Both the position numbers and the translations under genes were made by a program. Positions 43,105-54,060 of a stretch of DNA of 64,000 nt are shown in pieces. The stretch is taken from positions 4,216,001 through 4,280,000 of the forward strand of contig NZ_CP126604.1 of assembly GCF_008364625.2 (NCBI RefSeq). Direction: 5' to 3'. The notes under the pieces were generated by a model that did not search any database, was not told the DNA's origin, and was given only the letters and a program-made list of their open reading frames with translations. Source of the stretch: Enterobacter dykesii. Its GTDB lineage: Bacteria > Pseudomonadota > Gammaproteobacteria > Enterobacterales > Enterobacteriaceae. Each line of letters begins with the position of its first letter. The stretch's first letter is position 1.

Positions 43105-43947
43105 ATGCTCAGTTATCGCCACAGCTTTCACGCAGGCAACCACGCCGACGTCCTTAAACACACCGTTCAGAGCCTGATCATTGAATCGCTCAAAGAGAAA
43201 GAGAAGCCGTTTCTCTATCTGGACACGCACGCGGGCGCGGGCCGTTATCAGCTGAGCGGCGAGCATGCCGAGCGTACCGGTGAATATCTGGAAGGGATTG
43301 CCCGCATCTGGCAGCAGGACGACCTGCCTGCCGAGCTGGAGCCTTACATCGGCGTGGTGAACCACTTCAACCGCAACGGCCAGCTGCGCTACTACCCTGG
43401 CTCACCGCTGATTGCCCGCCAGCTGCTGCGCGAGCAGGACAGCATTCAGCTGACCGAGCTGCACCCGAGCGATTTCCCGCTGCTGCGTTCTGAATTCCAG
43501 AAAGACAGCCGCGCCCGCGTGGAAAAAGCCGACGGTTACCAGCAGCTGAAGGCCAAGCTGCCGCCGGTTTCTCGTCGCGGCCTGGTGCTGATCGACCCGC
43601 CGTACGAAATCAAAACCGACTATCAGGCGGTGGTAACCGGCATCCACGAAGGCTACAAACGCTTCGCCACCGGGACATACGCCCTGTGGTATCCGGTGGT
43701 GCTGCGCGCGCAGATCAAACGCATGATCAAAGACCTGGAAGCGACCGGCATCCGCAAAATCCTGCAGATCGAGCTGGCGGTACGACCTGACAGCGATCAG
43801 CGCGGCATGACCGCCTCCGGGATGATTGTGATCAACCCGCCGTGGAAGCTCGAAGCGCAGATGAACAGCGTGCTGCCGTGGCTGCATAAAACGCTGGTGC
43901 CCGCGGGGACAGGCCACGCCACCGTCAGTTGGATCGTGCCGGAGTAA
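43105..43947 (+). CDS. rlmJ: 23S rRNA (adenine2030-N6)-methyltransferase
   Basis: The product has 280 residues, as in E. coli. The start MLSYRHSFHAGNHADVLKH at 43105 fits the family; an earlier in-frame ATG at 42991 lies in the REP-containing leader and is rejected. DTHAGAGRY binds SAM and LIDPPYE is the catalytic DPPY motif of N6-adenine methyltransferases. It is followed by gor, as in K-12. Confidence 0.95.
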   Translation: MLSYRHSFHAGNHADVLKHTVQSLIIESLKEKEKPFLYLDTHAGAGRYQLSGEHAERTGEYLEGIARIWQQDDLPAELEPYIGVVNHFNRNGQLRYYPGSPLIARQLLREQDSIQLTELHPSDFPLLRSEFQKDSRARVEKADGYQQLKAKLPPVSRRGLVLIDPPYEIKTDYQAVVTGIHEGYKRFATGTYALWYPVVLRAQIKRMIKDLEATGIRKILQIELAVRPDSDQRGMTASGMIVINPPWKLEAQMNSVLPWLHKTLVPAGTGHATVSWIVPE

Positions 43948-44018
43948 TCGCAGTCATCGGTGGAAACTATTGATTTCAGGTATACAATCGCGGCAATTCA
44001 CGATTAAGGACAAAAGCA

Positions 44019-45371
44019 ATGACTAAGCATTATGACTACATCGCAATCGGCGGCGGCAGCGGCGGCATCGCCTCCATCAACCGTGCGGCCATGTACGGCC
44101 AGAAGTGCGCGCTGATTGAAGCCAAAGCGCTGGGCGGCACCTGCGTGAACGTGGGTTGTGTACCGAAGAAAGTGATGTGGCATGCGGCGCAGATCCGTGA
44201 AGCTATCCATATGTATGGCCCGGACTACGGCTTTGACACCACCATCAACCGCTTCGACTGGGACAAACTGATCGCCAGCCGTACCGCCTACATCGACCGT
44301 ATTCACACCTCGTACGACAACGTTCTGGGTAAAAATAACGTCGATGTTATCCACGGTTTCGCCCGCTTTGTGGACGAAAAAACGATCGAAGTGAACGGCG
44401 AGACGATCACCGCCGATCACATCCTGATCGCCACCGGCGGTCGTCCGAGCCACCCGAACATCCCGGGCGTGGAATACGGCATCGACTCCGACGGTTTCTT
44501 CGAGCTGCCTGCCCTGCCAAAACGCGTTGCCGTTGTTGGCGCGGGCTATATCGCGGTGGAACTGGCCGGCGTGATTAACGGCCTGGGCGCGGAAGCCCAC
44601 CTGTTCGTACGTAAACACGCGCCGCTGCGCAGCTTTGACCCGCTGATTGTCGATACGCTGGTTGAAGTGATGAACACCGAAGGCCCGACCCTGCACACCA
44701 ACGCCGTGCCAAAAGCGGTCGTGAAAAACGCGGACGGTAGCCTGACGCTTGAGCTGGAAGATGGCCGCAGCCAGACCGTCGATTGCCTGATCTGGGCGAT
44801 TGGCCGTGAACCTGCGAACGATAACTTCAACCTGGGCGTGACTGGCGTGAAAACCGACGAAAAAGGCTATATCGTCGTCGATAAATTCCAGAACACCAGC
44901 GTTCCAGGCATTTATGCGGTTGGCGACAACACCGGCGCGGTTGAGCTGACGCCGGTCGCCGTTGCGGCGGGCCGTCGTCTCTCCGAGCGCCTGTTCAACA
45001 ACAAGCCGGACGAGCATCTGGACTACAGCAACATTCCGACCGTGGTCTTCAGCCACCCGCCAATCGGCACCGTCGGCTTAACCGAGCCGCAGGCGCGCGA
45101 GCAGTATGGCGACGACCAGGTGAAAGTGTATAAATCGGCGTTTACCGCGATGTACACCGCCGTCACCTCGCACCGTCAGCCGTGCCGCATGAAGCTGGTC
45201 TGCGTGGGCCCGGAAGAGAAGATTGTCGGCATCCACGGCATCGGCTTCGGCATGGACGAGATCCTGCAGGGCTTCGCCGTGGCGCTGAAGATGGGCGCAA
45301 CCAAGAAAGACTTCGACAACACGGTGGCCATCCACCCGACGGCCGCGGAAGAGTTTGTGACCATGCGTTAA
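44019..45371 (+). CDS. gor: Glutathione reductase
   Basis: The product has 450 residues, exactly E. coli Gor. It reduces oxidised glutathione with NADPH. FAD motif [16 protein letters not shown]; redox-active pair Cys42/Cys47 in [18 protein letters not shown] motif [13 protein letters not shown]; active-site His in IHPTAAEE at the C-terminal dimer interface. A terminator follows 35 bases after the stop. It is the last conserved gene before the fimbrial insertion. Confidence 0.96.
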
Positions 45372-45405
45372 TACGGGAAACGTATCTATACACGTTTTTG
45401 CTCTG

Positions 45406-45438
45406 GAAATCTGGCTGAAAGGCCAGATTTCTCTTTTT
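45406..45438 (+). terminator. Rho-independent terminator of gor
   Basis: GAAATCTGGC (45406-45415), loop TGAAAG, GCCAGATTTC (45422-45431), then CTCTTTTT. A perfect 10-bp stem with a T-run. Confidence 0.92.
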
Positions 45439-45646
45439 AAGAACGTAATGAAAGTCCGTTTGTAGGGTAGAGATATACCCGGCTTACAATTCATGGCTTG
45501 CTGAACATGTATTCTTCATCGGCCTAAAAATCGTCAAACTCCCTAATTCTAAAACACCGATATCCTGAAGGGGTCAAATAATGCGCAATCATCTCGCCTC
45601 CAATAAATACCCGGTTAATATGACGTCTTGTTGACTGAATTGCCCT

Positions 45647-45832
45647 CTATTCTATTATTATGCCTGGAATTATCTCTAAAAGATTGCCTTTGAGAATACG
45701 GTATTCAGGTTTAACCGCCGTTCCGTACTCTATTACTTCAGATTCGAAATCATGTCTGGAACGATGGGCAAAAATTACTGTTTTGCCTGTCTCCACGCCT
45801 ATTCCAAATTGGTAGGCTGCCGTTGTCAGCAA
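45647..45832 (-). pseudogene. Possible remnant of an unidentified gene
   Basis: A 61-codon frame (MLTTAAYQFGIGVETGKTVI to IIPGIIIE) reads like real protein, with mixed charge and a closing beta-rich segment, but is short, has no clear ribosome site, and lies in an AT-rich 750-base gap (45372-46125) otherwise without genes. It could be the C-terminal end of a decayed accessory gene or a genuine small protein. I do not recognise its family. Confidence 0.3.
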
Positions 45833-46125
45833 TGAATTTGAAGTTATTGCATAGTCATCCTTATGCTTCTTTCACATGGTTCTCAGATAAGCAGGCGTAT
45901 GATAGTTAAGATTTTGTATTCTCGTGACTACCATACTCGTCGAGGTCTGAAGCAAGCATGCATTAGAAAATCCACCGGCAGCAGTGCTCGCAATGATCGT
46001 TTTTAGGTGAGAGATATATCCTGCCCTGGAGACGGAAGATATAGGCTTCTCTTAATCAATAACAGCAAATGTATCAGTTACTAATAGCATTACAAAGTTG
46101 CATTTTATTCATAACGACATTCTTA
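45833..46125. other. AT-rich gene-free spacer 3' of the fimbrial operon
   Basis: No reading frame of credible length and no strong terminator hairpin were found here. It joins gor to the end of the fimbrial operon and probably represents decayed border DNA of an insertion. The fimbrial operon's own terminator was not identified. Confidence 0.5.
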
Positions 46126-46635
46126 TTACTGATAGGTGAAATCTACCTCCACCACTGCATTAAAGTCTCCTGCAGTGACTACCCCACTCGGATTAAACAT
46201 TCTGGCATCAAGTTGAAAAGTAACATTTCGGTTTACATCAATTAACTCTGTTATAGTTGCACCATTACCGTAGCTCTTGGTATGTCCTGTATCGCTAATT
46301 TGCAAAACTACACCTTGCGCGCTACCGCTGTTTGCAAAGTATTTATTATCACTGGCACTATTACCAGTAAGTGTTACAGTGGCATTTTCCCAGTTTACCG
46401 GGCATTTACTTAAAGTTAGTGTAAAAGGAGTCCAGACACTGCCAGAACCTGCGGCCAATTCGTTAACAAAAGTTTTACCTAAGAAAACTGTCTGATTGAT
46501 GGTATCGGTATCAACAGTACATGGGGGAGCTGTAATTCTTCCTAAGATATTAATCGTTGCAGTTGTAGTTCCTGCTATTGCAAAATTTACTGTAGTTACA
46601 ATAATAAAAAGCACTATTAATTTTATAAATTTCAT
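46126..46635 (-). CDS. Minor fimbrial subunit
   Basis: The product has 169 residues. The signal peptide MKFIKLIVLFIIVTTVNFAIA is followed by a pilin domain: a donor-strand-like N-terminus (TTTATINILGRI), Cys at PPCTVD and at SKCPVNW forming the usual disulfide, and the penultimate Tyr ending (VEVDFTYQ). AGGA lies 11 bases before ATG 46635; a second ATG at 46647 is less well placed. It is the last gene of the operon and probably a minor rod or terminator subunit. Confidence 0.82.
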   Translation of the reverse strand: MKFIKLIVLFIIVTTVNFAIAGTTTATINILGRITAPPCTVDTDTINQTVFLGKTFVNELAAGSGSVWTPFTLTLSKCPVNWENATVTLTGNSASDNKYFANSGSAQGVVLQISDTGHTKSYGNGATITELIDVNRNVTFQLDARMFNPSGVVTAGDFNAVVEVDFTYQ

Positions 46636-46652
46636 TATATAAATCATCCTGT

Positions 46653-47600
46653 TTACTGATAAGTTATGTCCAGGGTAGCAGTTGAGTTTGCCTCACCAGG
46701 AATGATTTTTTCTTGTGTTTGATAGTAACGAGCCGAGAAAGTCAGTAATTCTTGAGAGCCTCCTTCAGTTGATATCAATGGAATAGATTCTTCAAGTTTT
46801 ATTGGTTGAGAATTATATAATATTTGTACACCTATCCCTTTAGCCGTATCATTTGCGCCAGTGTTAGTTAGCGCGATAACGGTAGGGTCGCTAGTTTCCC
46901 CACTCTTTTCTGCATTCAAAGTGATACTAATGTTTGAATGCCCATCGCAAGTTAAACCAATTTTAAAATCATATGAATCTGAGGCCGAACCAACTCCCTT
47001 GAATACATTTGAAGATATATCGCCCAGTTTTGCCTGCACGTTCGAATTATCCAATAAACATTGAGTAGCATGAATAACCCCACCACTAACAAGATAATTA
47101 AAAATTATATCACCTGTTTTTTCCACTTTTAAATGAGTATATTGTCCATTATATAACGTGCCAGATTCAGGCTTTTCAGTAATATACAAAGCCATCTCCC
47201 TATCATTCGTAAAAGTGGGCCAGGAACCACTAACAGAATTAGGCGGTGCGAATTCGTTACAGTACCGTGCGCTTATTGGTCCGAATGTTATCACATATCC
47301 GATCCCTTTCACATTTGTAGAATATATGTGACAACCTTCCGCGGTTGTTAATCCTGTGTCATTTCCGTAATCTGCAATGGAGTTAAATACAGACGTGCCG
47401 CAAGTAGTATTTACACCGGCTGAATCAGTTAAATATGAAGAATCCCAAATCTTTGCTCCTGTTGAAGTCCCATAAGGAACCGTAATTTCAGGGACAGTGA
47501 AAGTTACATTCATAGTTTTGTCTATACATCCTGCAGCCCAACTATGAGTGGATAATGTATAGAGCATTAAAAAAAACAAAAAATGGAAGATTCTTTTCAT
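46653..47600 (-). CDS. Two-domain fimbrial tip adhesin
   Basis: The product has 315 residues with a signal peptide (about residues 1-22, ending THSWAAG). Residues about 23-175 form an N-terminal domain with several cysteines (CIDKTMN, TTCGTSV, EGCHIYS, RYCNEF), which may be the receptor-binding part. Residues about 180-315 form a pilin domain (CLLDNSNVQAKLGDIS to TATLDITYQ). The start at 47600 overlaps the usher stop (ATGA); an ATG at 47609 is an alternative. The architecture is FimH-like, but the receptor cannot be read from sequence. Confidence 0.8.
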   Translation of the reverse strand: MKRIFHFLFFLMLYTLSTHSWAAGCIDKTMNVTFTVPEITVPYGTSTGAKIWDSSYLTDSAGVNTTCGTSVFNSIADYGNDTGLTTAEGCHIYSTNVKGIGYVITFGPISARYCNEFAPPNSVSGSWPTFTNDREMALYITEKPESGTLYNGQYTHLKVEKTGDIIFNYLVSGGVIHATQCLLDNSNVQAKLGDISSNVFKGVGSASDSYDFKIGLTCDGHSNISITLNAEKSGETSDPTVIALTNTGANDTAKGIGVQILYNSQPIKLEESIPLISTEGGSQELLTFSARYYQTQEKIIPGEANSTATLDITYQ

Positions 47601-50182
47601 TGGATACATTCGCTATTCATGTTTATCAAAGAACTTTTCTCAGTGCTATCTGGCATAAAATATTTAACCGTGCATTTTTTACTGGTACTTGCTCCCCAAC
47701 TTGCCAGTAGTACACCCTGTTTTTTCAAACCACTAACATATACTTGCCCTTCCTCACCTACGATAAATTCTACATCTTGTGTGCTGTCATTAGCAGTTAC
47801 CGTTGCACCAAAAGGAACATATTTTCCATCCTTTAATCTGAGCGTTATTAAAGCTCGTGAACCTATACGAGCTTCAAATTCAGCCCGTACAATTGCGCCA
47901 CGGGTTGGAATTACCGTCTTATTGGTCTGAACTAAGTCGATGTCATCACCAAGATACTCAGTATCAAGACCAACATCATTCTTGCGGAACGCTGTTTCAT
48001 ATGGGACAACTGCGTAACCCCGGAAGTCTGTCTTCACGCCGGTTTGTCCGTGTATTTTAACTCCGGACGCCCCAGGGGCTTTTACCAAGGAGATAGTTTC
48101 ACCCAATGGTTGGCTTAATGTCAGACCATCTCTATGTAAGATCATCCCACCTGATATACCGTAATTTACGCGGCTATTATCAGGATCATAACTGTAACCG
48201 CCGTTCATTTCGCCATAAGTGCCACGATAATCGACATTTAGATTCCCGGTAGTACCCGTATCAGATGTTGAATATCCTTTCTGCATGTTCCAGCTTAGAT
48301 TATTGTCCTCAAGCAACGTACCGTTAAGACCCACCGTGTGGCTGGTACCAACGCCTTTAGTACCCGTCATGCCATAGCTGACATTCATATTATGACCTAA
48401 AAGAAAATTGCTGAACGGAACGTTAATATTTAAGGACACAATCTGATCTTTATCATAAACTTTGCTACCATCGTTATTTCCGCTGGATGTGCCATTTCGG
48501 CTGTATGAGTAATTGATGCTATAGCTAATACCTTTCCATGAATTATTATACCCGGTTGAGTATGATTCTGTGCTTTGCCGGGTGTCCCAGTAAGCTTCAT
48601 GGATAGCTGATAGCGACAGACTACCCATACTTTCACCGATTGTTTGCGTCATTGTCAGCTCTTCACGATTGCGAGCCCTGCCAACGTTGCTGCTGGCGTT
48701 GCTGTCATCATTTCGCCAAGAATCAAGGGTTTCCCCCATCGTGTAGTACCCACTTGTGGAATATCGATAACCCGCTATTGCAAAATTCGTCCCTGTTTGT
48801 GTAATGTTTTTATTGTAGCGAATACGCATCGACGTCCCCTGAGGAGATTCAGAACTTTTCAACTTAGCGTCTGCCAGGGTTACATCTACTGACAATGCGC
48901 CAACATCTCCCATGTTCTTACCCAGCCCCATAGACATGCTGCTATAGTGCTCTGCGCCCTGTAACCCGCCATAAATAGTTACCCCTTTGGGCATACCGTA
49001 TATAGCAGTGCCTTGAAAAAAAGGTGTTTTATTTACAGCGCTGTCATAGGAGCGATATTGTCCTGTGGTTGTACTGTATTTTAATCGTCCTTCACGCTGT
49101 AACACCGGCAATGAAGCAAACGGCACCAAAATATGCTGCTCAGAACCATCTGCTTCTTTGATTGTTACCTCGAGATCGCCGGAGCCGCCTGTCGGATACA
49201 TATCGGTAATTTCAAAAGCTCCCGGAGAAACATAACTTCGGTAAATCTCATAACCATTTTGACGAATAACTACTTGTGCATTCGTCCGGGCAATTCCGCG
49301 TACCACAGGTGCATATCCACGTAAACTTTCAGGCAACATGTCATCATCAGATGCGATCTGAACCCCACGAAACGGCACACTGTCAAACACGTCTGAAGGA
49401 GACGAGCTATCGCCAAAGGTCATTTGCCCTTTAAGTGTCACGATATTGCGCTGGGCATAGGTATAGACACTTTCAAAATTACTTCGACCATCACTTCCAT
49501 GGTTCCATGTGGAATAATTTCGAAAACGCCACGGCCCGACGTTTAGACCAGGTCGCAAATTAGCATACTGGCTATTGCTGTTCCGTCCTGTACCGGAATG
49601 GTCATGGGTACTATCCCCTGAAAAGCTATAGTTCAGTAAAAGAGCATTTATTCCATTATCCCATTGCGCAGAGTCAACATACCCACGAGCCTTAGGTATC
49701 AGTGCCGCCTGGGGAATACGTAGAACTAATTTCTGGCTATTAAAATAAAATTGGCTATCAGCATCTGGAATGGCATTCAAATTAACACATGTCGTGTTTG
49801 TATCTCCAAGCGACGGGAACAGATACGTTTTTACGCCATAACTACGCAAATCTTTCAGACTGAGACATGGAATTAGCCGATTTTTTCCTGACTCTTCATT
49901 AAGACGAAAATCCACATCACGAGCATCTACATTTTCGCTGTTGACAAAAATATCAACCCTGTATTTTCCAGGCGCTTGTGTCCCACTTTCATAAAGAGAT
50001 AAATCAACATGTTCCTGATTCGGATTCCCCAAAGATAAAAGGGCTGGATTAAAATATACATCGCTGCTTTCGTTCAATTCCGGCGCTTTACTGTCTCCAG
50101 CATATACCAGCGATGGTATCAATAAAGTTACCAGGCATGCTAAAGCTGAGCGAGGAAAGCGAGAAGGTAATACTGCAACCAT
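47597..50182 (-). CDS. Fimbrial outer-membrane usher
   Basis: The product has 861 residues, a normal usher length. A signal peptide ends at VYAGDS. The N-terminal chaperone-binding domain begins VYFNPALLSLG. A 24-strand barrel with a plug and the family motif RGYAPVVRGIARTNAQV near residue 290 follows, then C-terminal domains with GSRALITLRLKDGKYVPFGA. The closing cysteine pair is in KKCTVKYFM and NSECIQ. It secretes and assembles the subunits encoded around it. Confidence 0.93.
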   Translation of the reverse strand: MVAVLPSRFPRSALACLVTLLIPSLVYAGDSKAPELNESSDVYFNPALLSLGNPNQEHVDLSLYESGTQAPGKYRVDIFVNSENVDARDVDFRLNEESGKNRLIPCLSLKDLRSYGVKTYLFPSLGDTNTTCVNLNAIPDADSQFYFNSQKLVLRIPQAALIPKARGYVDSAQWDNGINALLLNYSFSGDSTHDHSGTGRNSNSQYANLRPGLNVGPWRFRNYSTWNHGSDGRSNFESVYTYAQRNIVTLKGQMTFGDSSSPSDVFDSVPFRGVQIASDDDMLPESLRGYAPVVRGIARTNAQVVIRQNGYEIYRSYVSPGAFEITDMYPTGGSGDLEVTIKEADGSEQHILVPFASLPVLQREGRLKYSTTTGQYRSYDSAVNKTPFFQGTAIYGMPKGVTIYGGLQGAEHYSSMSMGLGKNMGDVGALSVDVTLADAKLKSSESPQGTSMRIRYNKNITQTGTNFAIAGYRYSTSGYYTMGETLDSWRNDDSNASSNVGRARNREELTMTQTIGESMGSLSLSAIHEAYWDTRQSTESYSTGYNNSWKGISYSINYSYSRNGTSSGNNDGSKVYDKDQIVSLNINVPFSNFLLGHNMNVSYGMTGTKGVGTSHTVGLNGTLLEDNNLSWNMQKGYSTSDTGTTGNLNVDYRGTYGEMNGGYSYDPDNSRVNYGISGGMILHRDGLTLSQPLGETISLVKAPGASGVKIHGQTGVKTDFRGYAVVPYETAFRKNDVGLDTEYLGDDIDLVQTNKTVIPTRGAIVRAEFEARIGSRALITLRLKDGKYVPFGATVTANDSTQDVEFIVGEEGQVYVSGLKKQGVLLASWGASTSKKCTVKYFMPDSTEKSSLINMNSECIQ

Positions 50183-50243
50183 TGATTTATTCCTTTACCT
50201 TATTCCTGTAATTTATTCAAGCAGAGTATAAATAATCGAAACA

Positions 50244-50909
50244 TCAGAAAGTTGTATGATGTTCTGGGCCTATGGCACCGTAGTCACTGATTATTTTCCA
50301 TGTCACTGCGCTTCCTCCTGAAGAGAGAGGGAAATAAGAAGTTGCTCCCGGCGCAACGTAGGCCACATTCTTTAATTTTTTACCATCTACAGAGATATCA
50401 TTGAAATTCATATAGTATGCAGTTGGATTTTTAACCTTTAACTGATTACCACTACGCGACCAGACTAGCCTGTCGGCCTGATCCTCAGGTGAATTATCTT
50501 TCAGCGAAGATGGTCGGTAAATTAATTTGATACGCGTGCGAACAGCAATTTGAAGTGTGTTTCCCGCTCTTTTACCGGCAGGAATAGCTTTAACATTCAA
50601 CCAGAAAAGAGACTCTTGATCTTCCGGAAGATTTCCAGAGCGAATTATACGCAGAAGATTTTGTTGTTCACCATCAAGACGGAATAGGGGTGGTGTTACA
50701 ATAAAAGGTGCTTTTGATGAACTACTATCGTTGTTTTCGATCCACGTCTGAATCAGATATGGAATTTTATCGGGATTATTGACACTCAAGGAGGATTCTT
50801 TCTTCGCGCCATCATAAACCACGCGGGTACCGCCAACTATGATGCCGGCATTTACATTTGATATAACAAACATCGAACCTAACAATAATATGCTTCGTAT
50901 AATATTCAT
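50244..50909 (-). CDS. Periplasmic fimbrial chaperone
   Basis: The product has 221 residues. The signal peptide ends at SNVNAG. The mature part has GIIVGGTRVVYDGAKKESSLSV, YLIQTWIEN, the conserved PPLFRLDGEQQNLLRI and LFWLNVKAIP, giving the two immunoglobulin-like domains of the FGS (short F1-G1 loop) type. It donates a strand to unfolded subunits and delivers them to the usher. It lies between the major subunit and the usher. Confidence 0.93.
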   Translation of the reverse strand: MNIIRSILLLGSMFVISNVNAGIIVGGTRVVYDGAKKESSLSVNNPDKIPYLIQTWIENNDSSSSKAPFIVTPPLFRLDGEQQNLLRIIRSGNLPEDQESLFWLNVKAIPAGKRAGNTLQIAVRTRIKLIYRPSSLKDNSPEDQADRLVWSRSGNQLKVKNPTAYYMNFNDISVDGKKLKNVAYVAPGATSYFPLSSGGSAVTWKIISDYGAIGPEHHTTF

Positions 50910-50964
50910 ATAATACTATTCCAGATGATTAAACTGCCGAGTCATTAGACCCGGCGAATTAAAA

Positions 50965-51501
50965 TTATGGATAAACGATTGTGAAGTTGACAGCAGCATC
51001 TGCTTTACCAGCTGCAACGGTAGCTGCTTTCTGAATATAACGAGCATAGAAATCGAGTTCGTTAGAGACATCAGTAGCCAGGGTATAAGAGCTTGATGGA
51101 GTTTCAAGCGGAACGACTGTACTCGCAGAATCCAATAATTGAATACCGATCCCTGTAGCGACACCTGTACCAGTAGTCAAAGCAAGTACAGATTCATCCC
51201 CGTCATAAGAAATCCCTTCAAACTTCACACTTGCTTTCGTTATGGTCGAAGGACATTTAGAAACTTTTAACGTAAATTTCGTAGCACTTGCCGTTGAGCC
51301 TACAGCGGTAAAAGCAGATTTCTGTACAGAGCCAAGATCCACAGCTAATGCACTGCTAGCACCAACATCGACAGTACATGCCGCGTCAAGAACTGTGCCA
51401 GTAAAATTAATTGAACCATCTGATGCATTTACGTTCGCATTTAGAAATGCACACGTAAGAAGTCCAAACAATGCTAATTTCGAATATTTTTTAAATTCCA
51501 T
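50965..51501 (-). CDS. Major fimbrial subunit
   Basis: The product has 178 residues, FimA-like. The signal peptide ends NANVNASDG. The mature domain has DGSINFTGTVLDAACTVDVG with the first cysteine, the partner Cys in VSKCPSTITK, ATGIGIQLLDS, and the C-terminal AAVNFTIVYP with penultimate Tyr. It is the first gene of the five-gene operon (subunit, chaperone, usher, adhesin, minor subunit), preceded by a leader with a palindrome and repeats. The operon is clearly more AT-rich than the flanking core genes. Confidence 0.92.
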   Translation of the reverse strand: MEFKKYSKLALFGLLTCAFLNANVNASDGSINFTGTVLDAACTVDVGASSALAVDLGSVQKSAFTAVGSTASATKFTLKVSKCPSTITKASVKFEGISYDGDESVLALTTGTGVATGIGIQLLDSASTVVPLETPSSSYTLATDVSNELDFYARYIQKAATVAAGKADAAVNFTIVYP

Positions 51502-51609
51502 AGATAGTAATTTCCTGTGATATTAAGTATGCATGTTAAACGCAGTTTTAACGCAATAAATACAAGCAGAATATCGTATACAAAAGAAATAATTCGTAAA
51601 GCGTAAAAA

Positions 51610-51625
51610 AGTCTCAATTGAGACT
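51610..51625 (-). promoter_or_regulatory. Perfect 16-bp palindrome in the fimbrial leader
   Basis: AGTCTCAATTGAGACT is self-complementary and, on the minus strand, is followed by six T residues. It lies about 110 bases before the major subunit ATG. It may be an operator, or an attenuator-like weak terminator upstream of the subunit. Confidence 0.5.
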
Positions 51626-51630
51626 CAAAA

Positions 51631-51660
51631 CAACAAAAAAACAACAAAAAAAAACAACAA
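51631..51660. repeat. Poly-A/CAAC simple repeat upstream of the fimbrial operon
   Basis: Three CAAC units alternate with runs of seven A (51635-51641) and nine A (51646-51654). Homopolymer runs of this size can vary by slippage. They lie about 130-160 bases from the first fimbrial start, in the probable promoter region. Confidence 0.6.
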
Positions 51661-52234
51661 TCAATGAATTAATTTAGCACTATCATTGATAATAATATTT
51701 TATTAATTAATTTATTGAGAATCTTCCCTTTCTTAACGTGAGTTTATAACCTAAAGAAACAAATCCTTTGTCACATTCGCATAAATTAAGGTAGATCAAT
51801 TGTAGCGACCATTTATTAGCAAGGGAGAACAGTATAGCTCCTTACTTTTGCATTAAAAAAAACATAGTATTCAGTCATATCCTTCTGTTAACTGTTCAGC
51901 GAGCAACTGAAATTAAAATATTATTGGGTCAGGTTATCAACAACTCTCTTGAATAAATTCTTATTACTCAAATTCATTAAATGAGCATATTTTTATGATA
52001 CTCCTAAGAGCGAAAATAGTGGTTTAATCAACCTAAGTTGAATTCCCCGTCTGATAGAGTCTTCTACTGGCCTATCAACTGATACCAAGCTCTATGCAAC
52101 AAAGTAACGTTACAAAATTTAGTTTTGTTCTCTGGAATCCAACGTCCTCCCCCTCAGATCATGGGATTCAAGGCTTTCCCGAGTTCCAGAGGTCTGCGGG
52201 TGTAGAGGTATTGTGTGACCATGCGTTAATCCTG
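51661..52234. other. AT-rich intergenic region between the fimbrial operon and treF
   Basis: The gap 51502-52410 has no credible protein gene. Its left part is very AT-rich. The right part (about 52079-52234) becomes GC-balanced and runs into a strong plus-strand terminator, so a short untranslated transcript is possible. No known RNA family was recognised. Confidence 0.45.
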
Positions 52235-52262
52235 ATGCCCCTCCCCGGAGGGGCATTTTTTT
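52235..52262 (+). terminator. Strong terminator with no upstream gene on its strand
   Basis: ATGCCCCTCC (52235-52244) and GGAGGGGCAT (52247-52256) form a 9-bp or longer stem with seven T residues at 52256-52262. The only plus-strand gene upstream is gor, with its own terminator almost 7 kb away, so this end belongs to an unseen transcript. Confidence 0.85.
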
Positions 52263-52410
52263 AACATTCATAAATCGTTGCAAAACGAATGCTCCGAAAA
52301 TAGTGATCTACCGCACATTTCCCTCCCCATCTACCGAAGCGAATGTCTACGCTTATAAGACGCCCGGATAAACCTGTCTTTTGAACACACAACCGGAGGT
52401 CCCTATCACC

Positions 52411-54060
52411 ATGTTCAACCAGAAACTACAGGCTACCGAGAACATCGAGTTCGAGATTGCAGAAGAGCTGCGCTACGAGACCGATCCCTGCGAGTTGAAA
52501 CTGGATGAAATGATTGAGGCGGAGCCGGAACCCGAAATGATCGAGGGGCTACCCGCCTCCGATGCGTTGACGCCCGCAGACCGCTATCTTGAACTGTTCG
52601 AGCACGTGCAGTCGACGCGGCTGTTTGCGGACAGTAAAACCTTTCCCGACTGCGCGCCAAAGATGGATCCGCTGGATATCCTGATCCGCTACCGCAAGGT
52701 CAGACGCCACCGGGATTTCGACCTGCGCCAGTTTGTGGAGAACCACTTCTGGATGCCGGAAACGTACGGCACAGAATATGTCTCCGACCCGGGACTCTCC
52801 CTGAAAGAGCATATTGATAACCTGTGGCCGGTGCTGACGCGCGAGCCGCAGGATCACATTCCCTGGTCTTCCCTGCTGGCACTGCCGCAGGCCTATATCG
52901 TCCCCGGCGGGCGATTCAGCGAGACCTACTACTGGGATTCCTATTTCTCCATGCTGGGGCTGGCAGAGAGCGGCCGTAACGATCTGCTCAAGTGTATGGC
53001 GGACAACTTCGCCTGGCTGATTGAACGCTACGGACATATCCCCAACGGCAATCGCACCTATTATCTCAGCCGCTCACAGCCGCCGGTCTTTGCCCTGATG
53101 GTGGAGCTGTTCGAGGAGGACGGCGTGCGCGGGGCGAAACGCTATCTGGACCACCTCAAAATGGAGTACGCCTTCTGGATGGACGGCGCGGAGTCGCTGC
53201 TGCTTAATCAGGCTTACCGCAGCGCCGTGCGCATGCCGGACGGTTCACTGCTCAACCGCTACTGGGACGACCGTGATACCCCGCGCGACGAATCGTGGAT
53301 TGAGGACGTGGAAACCGCCCGCCACTCGGGTCGTCCGCCCAATGAGGTGTATCGCGACCTGCGTGCGGGGGCGGCGTCCGGCTGGGATTATTCGTCCCGC
53401 TGGCTGCGCGATCCGTCGCGGCTCGCCAGCATCCGCACGACGCAGTTTATCCCCATCGATCTGAACGCCTTCCTGTTCAAGCTGGAAAGCGCTATCGCCA
53501 ACATCTCGGCGTCGAAAGGGGATAAAGAGACGGCAGAAACGTTCCGCCAGAAAGCCAACGACCGCCGCGCGGCGGTGAACCGCTATCTGTGGGATGAGGA
53601 GAGCGGCTGTTACCGCGATTACGACTGGCGACGCGAAGAGCTGGCGCTGTTTTCTGCCGCCAGCATTGTGCCGCTGTATGTTGGAATGGCGACGCACGAG
53701 CAGGCAGAACGTTTGTCGGATGCGGTCAAGGCGCGTCTGCTGACGCCGGGCGGAATTCTGGCGACCGAGTACGAAACCAGCGAGCAGTGGGATAAACCCA
53801 ACGGCTGGGCACCGCTGCAGTGGATGGCGATTCAGGGGTTCAAGCAGTACGGCAACGACTCGCTGGGCGATGAGATCGCCTGGAGCTGGCTGCATACGGT
53901 GAACCATTTTTATAAGACGCATCACAAGCTGATTGAGAAGTACCACATCGCCAGCAGTACACCGCGCGAAGGTGGCGGGGGTGAGTATCCGCTGCAGGAC
54001 GGTTTCGGCTGGACGAACGGCGTGGTGCGGCGGCTGATTGGGCTATATGGGGAACCTTAA
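52411..54060 (+). CDS. treF: Cytoplasmic trehalase
   Basis: The product has 549 residues, identical in length to E. coli TreF, of glycoside hydrolase family 37. It hydrolyses trehalose to glucose in the cytoplasm. Signatures [15 protein letters not shown] (about residue 165) and [12 protein letters not shown] (about residue 460) are intact, plus [18 protein letters not shown] at the C-terminus. ATG 52411 gives MFNQKLQ, aligning with E. coli MLNQKIQ. The GGAGG at 52395 is rather far (14 bases). Confidence 0.95.

Follow-up and report, generated by a model that had tools for sequence, protein, structure and literature searches.

A chaperone-usher fimbrial operon inserted at the 3' end of gor in Enterobacter dykesii

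Between gor and treF in Enterobacter dykesii lies a set of AT-rich fimbrial genes. How did these genes come to this position, and what kind of pilus do they encode? We analyzed the surrounding stretch of 64,000 nucleotides, hereafter the window, in which all positions are counted, and compared it with other genomes and plasmids. The type of pilus is ordinary; the history of the insertion is the more interesting part of the answer.

The fimbrial operon

The operon and the AT-rich sequence preceding it comprise the following features:

50965-51501, minus strand: major pilin, 178 aa; Pfam Fimbrial over cut-off
50244-50909, minus strand: periplasmic chaperone, 221 aa; Pfam PapD_N and PapD_C over cut-off
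47597-50182, minus strand: outer-membrane usher, 861 aa; Pfam PapC_N, Usher and PapC_C over cut-off
46653-47609, minus strand: two-domain tip adhesin, 318 aa counted from the first ATG and 315 aa from an in-frame ATG at codon 4; Pfam Fimbrial on residues 180-318, over cut-off
46126-46647, minus strand: minor pilin, FimG/SthD-like, 173 aa; Pfam Fimbrial over cut-off
51502-52213, no strand: AT-rich leader and distal end of the insert, 32.4% GC

According to Pfam a PapD-type chaperone, a PapC/FimD-type usher and Fimbrial-domain pilins are combined in a single operon, as in chaperone-usher fimbriae. Positions 46126-51501 are a complete, horizontally gained operon of this already known kind. The initial annotation had described a five-gene, AT-rich fimbrial operon at this place and had attributed it to horizontal gain. 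Coordinates, Pfam domains and reading frames, intact in all five genes, agree with this description, and the GC content of 37-44% across the five genes stands against 59.6% for gor and 59.8% for treF. Horizontal gain is borne out by this composition, by the empty gor-treF sites of other genomes described below and by the rarity of the adhesin in the genus. Universal presence was not observed: near-full-length matches to the adhesin in the 59 other Enterobacter species genomes sampled attain at most 38% identity, with partial matches of the pilin domain reaching 42%. On plasmids no adhesin match reached 60% identity. Among 23 loci of a named genome collection, which may omit the genome of the window itself and very close ones, no close adhesin was found (best match 38% for a partial segment, 32% near full length). 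The whole genome contains 7 usher matches.

The position of the adhesin gene ahead of the last pilin gene had been pointed out as well. The order itself is correct. As an unusual trait it was rejected: major pilin, chaperone, usher, adhesin and last pilin(s) follow each other in the same way in sfm (sfmACDHF), elf, the lpf operon of E2348/69 and mrk, and a plasmid-borne fimbrial operon of E. hormaechei likewise has the adhesin ahead of the last pilin(s).

By inspection of open reading frames no regulator gene was recognised inside the inserted unit, and the longest inverted repeat of the leader is 12 bp long and consists of A and T only. Together with the low GC content of the leader this would fit an intact operon in a silent state, for instance through repression as AT-rich foreign DNA, with little present effect. 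We regard this as unlikely, since the five intact reading frames argue against long disuse. Upstream of the major pilin gene, at 51630-51660, runs of A are broken by C and could slip in replication.

Insertion at the 3' end of gor

Outside the operon, the junctions of the insert and the neighboring genes were located as follows:

44019-45371, plus strand: gor, intact, its 3' end overlapping the left repeat; Gor protein matches across the genus
45356-45372, no strand: left 17-bp direct repeat TGTGACCATGCGTTAAT, attL-like, containing the gor stop codon; from alignment to empty sites
45405-45432, plus strand: terminator-like hairpin within the insert, now downstream of gor; from a hairpin search
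52214-52230, no strand: right 17-bp direct repeat TGTGACCATGCGTTAAT, attR-like, followed by displaced native gor downstream sequence; from alignment to empty sites
52234-52257, plus strand: native terminator of gor, displaced to the treF side by the insertion; from empty-site comparison and hairpin search
52411-54060, plus strand: treF; open reading frame, with a treF match in all 60 genomes surveyed

The inserted unit has a length of 6,858 bp, is located at the last codons of gor and is bracketed by a perfect 17-bp direct repeat. Empty sites align to the flanks of the window up to 45372 and from 52214 onwards, and in all short sites compared (10/10) the two flank alignments share 15–18 bp of the empty site. 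Four of the ten, from the Enterobacter genomes G012, G013, G039 and G054, are 184 bp long; G039 and G012 also carry the Gor proteins most like that of the window. With the exception of one dispersed repeat family, TGTGACCATGCGTTAAT is the sole 17-mer repeated in the window. Because the repeat covers the last gor codons together with the stop codon, the Gor product is unaltered; Gor is 94–100% identical in 58 of the 59 other genomes of the genus, the remaining one giving a partial match at 78%. The hairpin at 45405-45432 is weak evidence when taken alone, as 6 hairpins were found and 5.0 are expected in shuffled sequences. Neither the flanking repeat nor the decayed gene beside it, treated below, was part of the initial annotation. 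A dispersed short repeat containing CCTCTCCCACAGGGAGA is present in 3 copies in the window (29587, 54091, 61053).

Sequence searches with parts of the insert returned little. For the 712 bp at its right end, a search of 60 other Enterobacter genomes gave nothing of use (a single match of 29 bp), and plasmids gave no match. E. coli genomes contain no near match to the insert, and Rfam gave nothing over threshold in 43500-53000. A search with the right-junction pattern, allowing up to 2 mismatches, matched 86/392 genomes of the family. We read these matches as chance: none of the seven that were fetched (G295, G202, G296, G248, G405, G424, G444) encodes gor or treF within the stretch retrieved.

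To describe the interval across the genus we surveyed 60 Enterobacter genomes, this one included, in all of which both genes were matched. The gap between gor and treF is at most 281 bp in 24/60 genomes and exceeds 6 kb in 10/60, again including this one; the value for G055 is derived from partial matches. This agrees with the earlier designation of gor-treF as a hot spot, in which E. coli was said to carry ars and acid-fitness genes, a content that we confirmed for K-12. Several of the long intervals carry other adhesin genes (content partly assessed by eye). In G037 a distant fimbrial operon is present, and the tree groups its usher with YbgQ of E. coli. Five genomes (G002, G003, G010, G020, G040; loci L081-L084, L087-L092) have in common an island that spans about 27 kb; its very large open reading frames look by eye like genes for a giant adhesin and for its secretion. 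The island of G007 comprises 20.8 kb with RHS/Tc-like, mannosidase-like and PTS-like open reading frames (by eye), and the C-terminus of gor is changed there (loci L085, L086, L160).

A related fimbrial operon is located between gor and treF in G031, at the same place and in the same orientation. This could indicate an operon already present between gor and treF in the ancestor of Enterobacter and later lost from the other species. However, the usher of G031 is merely 52% identical to that of the window whereas its Gor is 96% identical, the interval is short in the 24 genomes mentioned above, and the 17-bp repeat together with the displaced gor terminator marks an insertion into an empty site. 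We therefore consider ancestral presence highly improbable.

A decayed gene shared with GInt-like islands

Between the left repeat and the operon we found the remains of a further gene:

45497-46087, minus strand: decayed gene, interrupted by 4 in-frame stops, with 60% identity to a 211-aa protein over residues 14-210

Pfam searches with three pieces of the decayed gene gave nothing meaningful, and the intact 211-aa relative has no match in Pfam, PADLOC or NCBIfam. At the DNA level the decayed gene matches 138 plasmid and 8 E. coli records, with about 67–68% identity among the matches listed. Two of these records, pW17-1 and E. coli 214-4, were inspected; the other copies were obtained through searches of the genus and the family. 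In 11/11 distinct other places (pW17-1, E. coli 214-4, G013, G031, G046, G051, G057, two in G053, G319 and G328) the 211-aa gene is located beside a gene for a tyrosine recombinase (ginA-like). These places do not count as independent cases because most copies are nearly identical, nearly all of them belonging to one lineage that is inserted in ygiQ or plasmid-borne. The four gin-like genes of 415, 578, 705 and 142 aa are intact in 7/11 places and decayed in the second place of G053; in the remaining 3 the examined stretch ends before all four are reached. We use the name gin on the basis of gene number, sizes, order, the integrase domain in the first gene and a weak, sub-threshold match of the fourth gene to DUF6262, rather than of a comparison with published Gin proteins.

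The arrangement of these islands agrees with the plan of GInts as given in the available text of PMC5385486, consisting of ginABCD, cargo, an AT-rich end and direct imperfect repeats of 10–17 nt. The same text describes that GInts sometimes overlap the end of a gene while leaving its product unaltered. In G031, G046, G053 and G057 a ygiQ gene is split by this type of island, and its two sides were both located; in G031 the island has a length of about 35.7 kb. At its junctions a short imperfect repeat, GAGCACCC, was seen by eye. Altogether, several Enterobacter genomes and one E. coli have ygiQ interrupted by such GInt-like islands (loci L114-L120, L164-L168).

The decayed gene of the window is oriented toward the element end as in the GInt-like islands, and its distance to the repeat of about 120 bp is close to the 130–140 bp or so between the 211-aa gene and the end of intact islands. 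It lacks its first codons, and the last pilin gene ends about 40 bp away from it. With gin-like queries from locus L101 no tblastn match to ginABCD was obtained in the window at 1e-4. We also found no gin-like genes near the fimbrial operons of the relatives and no intact element at gor. These absences were counted against a GInt origin, as were the lack of relatives for the right 712 bp, the identity of only 60% between the decayed gene and its relatives, the near restriction of the latter to one lineage and the basis of the gin naming.

Taking these observations together we consider it fairly likely that the fimbrial operon was delivered into the 3' end of gor by a site-specific, probably GInt-like element and that a deletion then fixed the cargo. 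A mobile element carrying an Sth/Lpf-like chaperone-usher operon would have integrated at the 3' end of gor by recombination at the 17-bp sequence over the last codons, leaving Gor intact and the unit bracketed by direct repeats. At the gor-proximal end it would have retained the remains of the terminal gene that lies between element end and ginA. A later deletion would have taken the first codons of the decayed gene and the recombinase operon, up to just past the last pilin gene, and the loss of the recombinases would leave the fimbrial cargo fixed in the chromosome.

A different tyrosine-recombinase element, such as a P4-like satellite, an IME or a prophage, could have integrated at gor and lost its integrase, the decayed gene then being old cargo. 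Islands often use the 3' ends of genes, and the sister operon of Citrobacter sp. R56 is located near P4-type integrase-like (427 aa) and primase-like (919 aa) open reading frames (by eye). In addition the island of G007, which has no decayed gene, contains a second copy resembling the gor end, and its right arm is similar: GGTATTG is found to the left of this copy as it is in the window. Among the gor-treF intervals searched for a second gor-end copy beside treF, the window and G007 alone have one. On the other hand we recognised no remains of an integrase within the insert, and the decayed gene lies at the same end, in the same orientation and at the same spacing as in GInt-like islands. We regard such a different element as somewhat unlikely.

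If a GInt-like element was involved, the 3' end of gor may be a natural target of the GInt type in Enterobacter: one element would have delivered the operon, lost its recombinases and left a fixed adhesion locus, and such a target may explain why unrelated adhesins have been captured at gor-treF repeatedly. We put this forward tentatively, as a reading that is quite possible. It would offer a concrete route by which fimbriae reach a fixed chromosomal position, namely site-specific insertion at a gene end followed by recombinase loss, and it suggests gor-treF as a recurrent site of adhesin capture in Enterobacter. Searches of the open-licence literature yielded no paper that describes integration at gor or a GInt with fimbrial genes.

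The adhesin and comparison with known systems

When the operon is expressed, chaperone and usher would be expected to assemble a pilus of the major pilin that is tipped by the two-domain protein, with the minor pilin serving as adaptor. The domains of the tip protein were assigned as follows:

47067-47528, minus strand: receptor-binding domain of the adhesin, about residues 28-181; from an AlphaFold2 model and structure comparison
Residues 182-318, minus strand: pilin domain of the adhesin; from Pfam Fimbrial (180-318) and fold match

The AlphaFold2 model was built from 18 sequences and has a mean pLDDT of 84.1. In model comparisons residues 27-182 match Abp1D (Z 16.4, rmsd 2.1, 145 aligned), the N-terminal half matches Abp2D (Z 16.1, rmsd 2.4, 145 aligned), residues 22-186 match MrkD (Z 15.2, rmsd 3.4, 150 aligned) and the C-terminal half matches FimA-type pilins (Z about 18). 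The N-terminal domain thus has a predicted receptor-binding fold of the MrkD/Abp type, a label that denotes the best-scoring and not a unique match, because looser matches to both domains were also obtained for FimH, FocH, LpfD and CupB6. A four-sequence profile detected MrkD at E 2.3e-7 and Abp2D at 1.5e-4. Against PF22003 (MrkD-like receptor-binding) the single adhesin scores 22.9, under the gathering cut-off of 27 bits, while two related adhesins exceed the cut-off with 30.9 and 31.8. No match to PF09160 (FimH mannose-binding) was obtained up to E 0.1, with FimH as control reaching 247 bits.

The initial annotation had proposed a two-domain adhesin with four cysteines in the N-terminal domain and no recognised sugar-binding motif. 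Both domains hold in the Pfam assignment and in the predicted structure, so that the protein is not a plain pilin, and the four cysteines are Cys28, 70, 93 and 117, with Cys184 and Cys221 in the pilin domain. The third statement can be made more precise: by fold and profile the domain is MrkD/Abp-like, yet the arginine of the binding pocket is absent. According to the available text of PMC9942807 the pocket residues are R86 of Abp1D/2D and R105 of MrkD, and charge reversal abolished or reduced binding. Where MrkD has R105 in the alignment the adhesin of the window has Val106; across the 18 aligned rows this column holds Arg in 10/18 and Lys in 4/18. We therefore predict a pocket chemistry and a ligand specificity unlike those of MrkD and Abp; the tip adhesin would bind its ligand through a domain of this type with a different pocket. 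As an adhesin of MrkD/Abp fold without the pocket arginine it provides a test case for specificity. Besides fold and profile it shares with MrkD and Abp1D/Abp2D a cysteine pair, Cys28 and Cys70, that is placed like their single disulfide and is invariant across the 18-row alignment. In contrast to them it has the second pair Cys93/Cys117, which is also present in the R56 adhesin and in one adhesin of Enterobacter 638 and absent from the other 638 adhesin.

Compared with GInt islands as outlined in the available text of PMC5385486, the unit has a perfect direct repeat within the 10–17 nt range, an intact target gene end, an AT-rich distal end (51502-52213) and the relic of a gene adjoining ginA. 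It differs by its length of 6.9 kb and by the absence of ginABCD, and is therefore not filed as a GInt.

Among fimbriae, the Sth type provides the top NCBIfam models for adhesin, usher and chaperone. These lie within PRK15292-15295, which we take to be the Sth fimbriae (a name also applied to one related usher); for the minor pilin the FimG model is best and the Sth-type model second. Unlike Sth proteins, however, those of the window stay under the curated equivalog cut-offs, with 865.7 versus 1397 for the usher and 96.3 versus 277 for the adhesin. The usher is 44–55% identical to Sth/Lpf-type ushers, 44% to LpfC and 42% to FimD. With E. coli Sfm the operon shares the gene order A-C-D-H-F, but the usher is 40% identical and the Sfm usher sits in another supported branch. 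The usher of the window is also not of the Mrk type of Klebsiella (31% identical to MrkC).

Usher-based clade typing, proposed in the initial annotation, placed the near kin and left the deeper forks without resolution; by identity the nearest are the Sth/Lpf-like ushers, part of the group of Fim/Lpf/Sth-type ushers that presumably corresponds to usher clade gamma1. In the tree the usher of the window falls in a supported set of four with the usher of the E. hormaechei plasmid and another usher of the same genome. The closest relative found is the operon of Citrobacter sp. R56 (loci L097/L169), whose usher is 61% identical and sister to that of the window with a support of 100/100. Gene order is the same, the chaperone is 52% and the pilins are about 47% identical, and its adhesin has a valine in place of the pocket arginine as well. 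In contrast, this adhesin is 32–35% identical to that of the window, and the R56 operon occupies a different chromosomal site.
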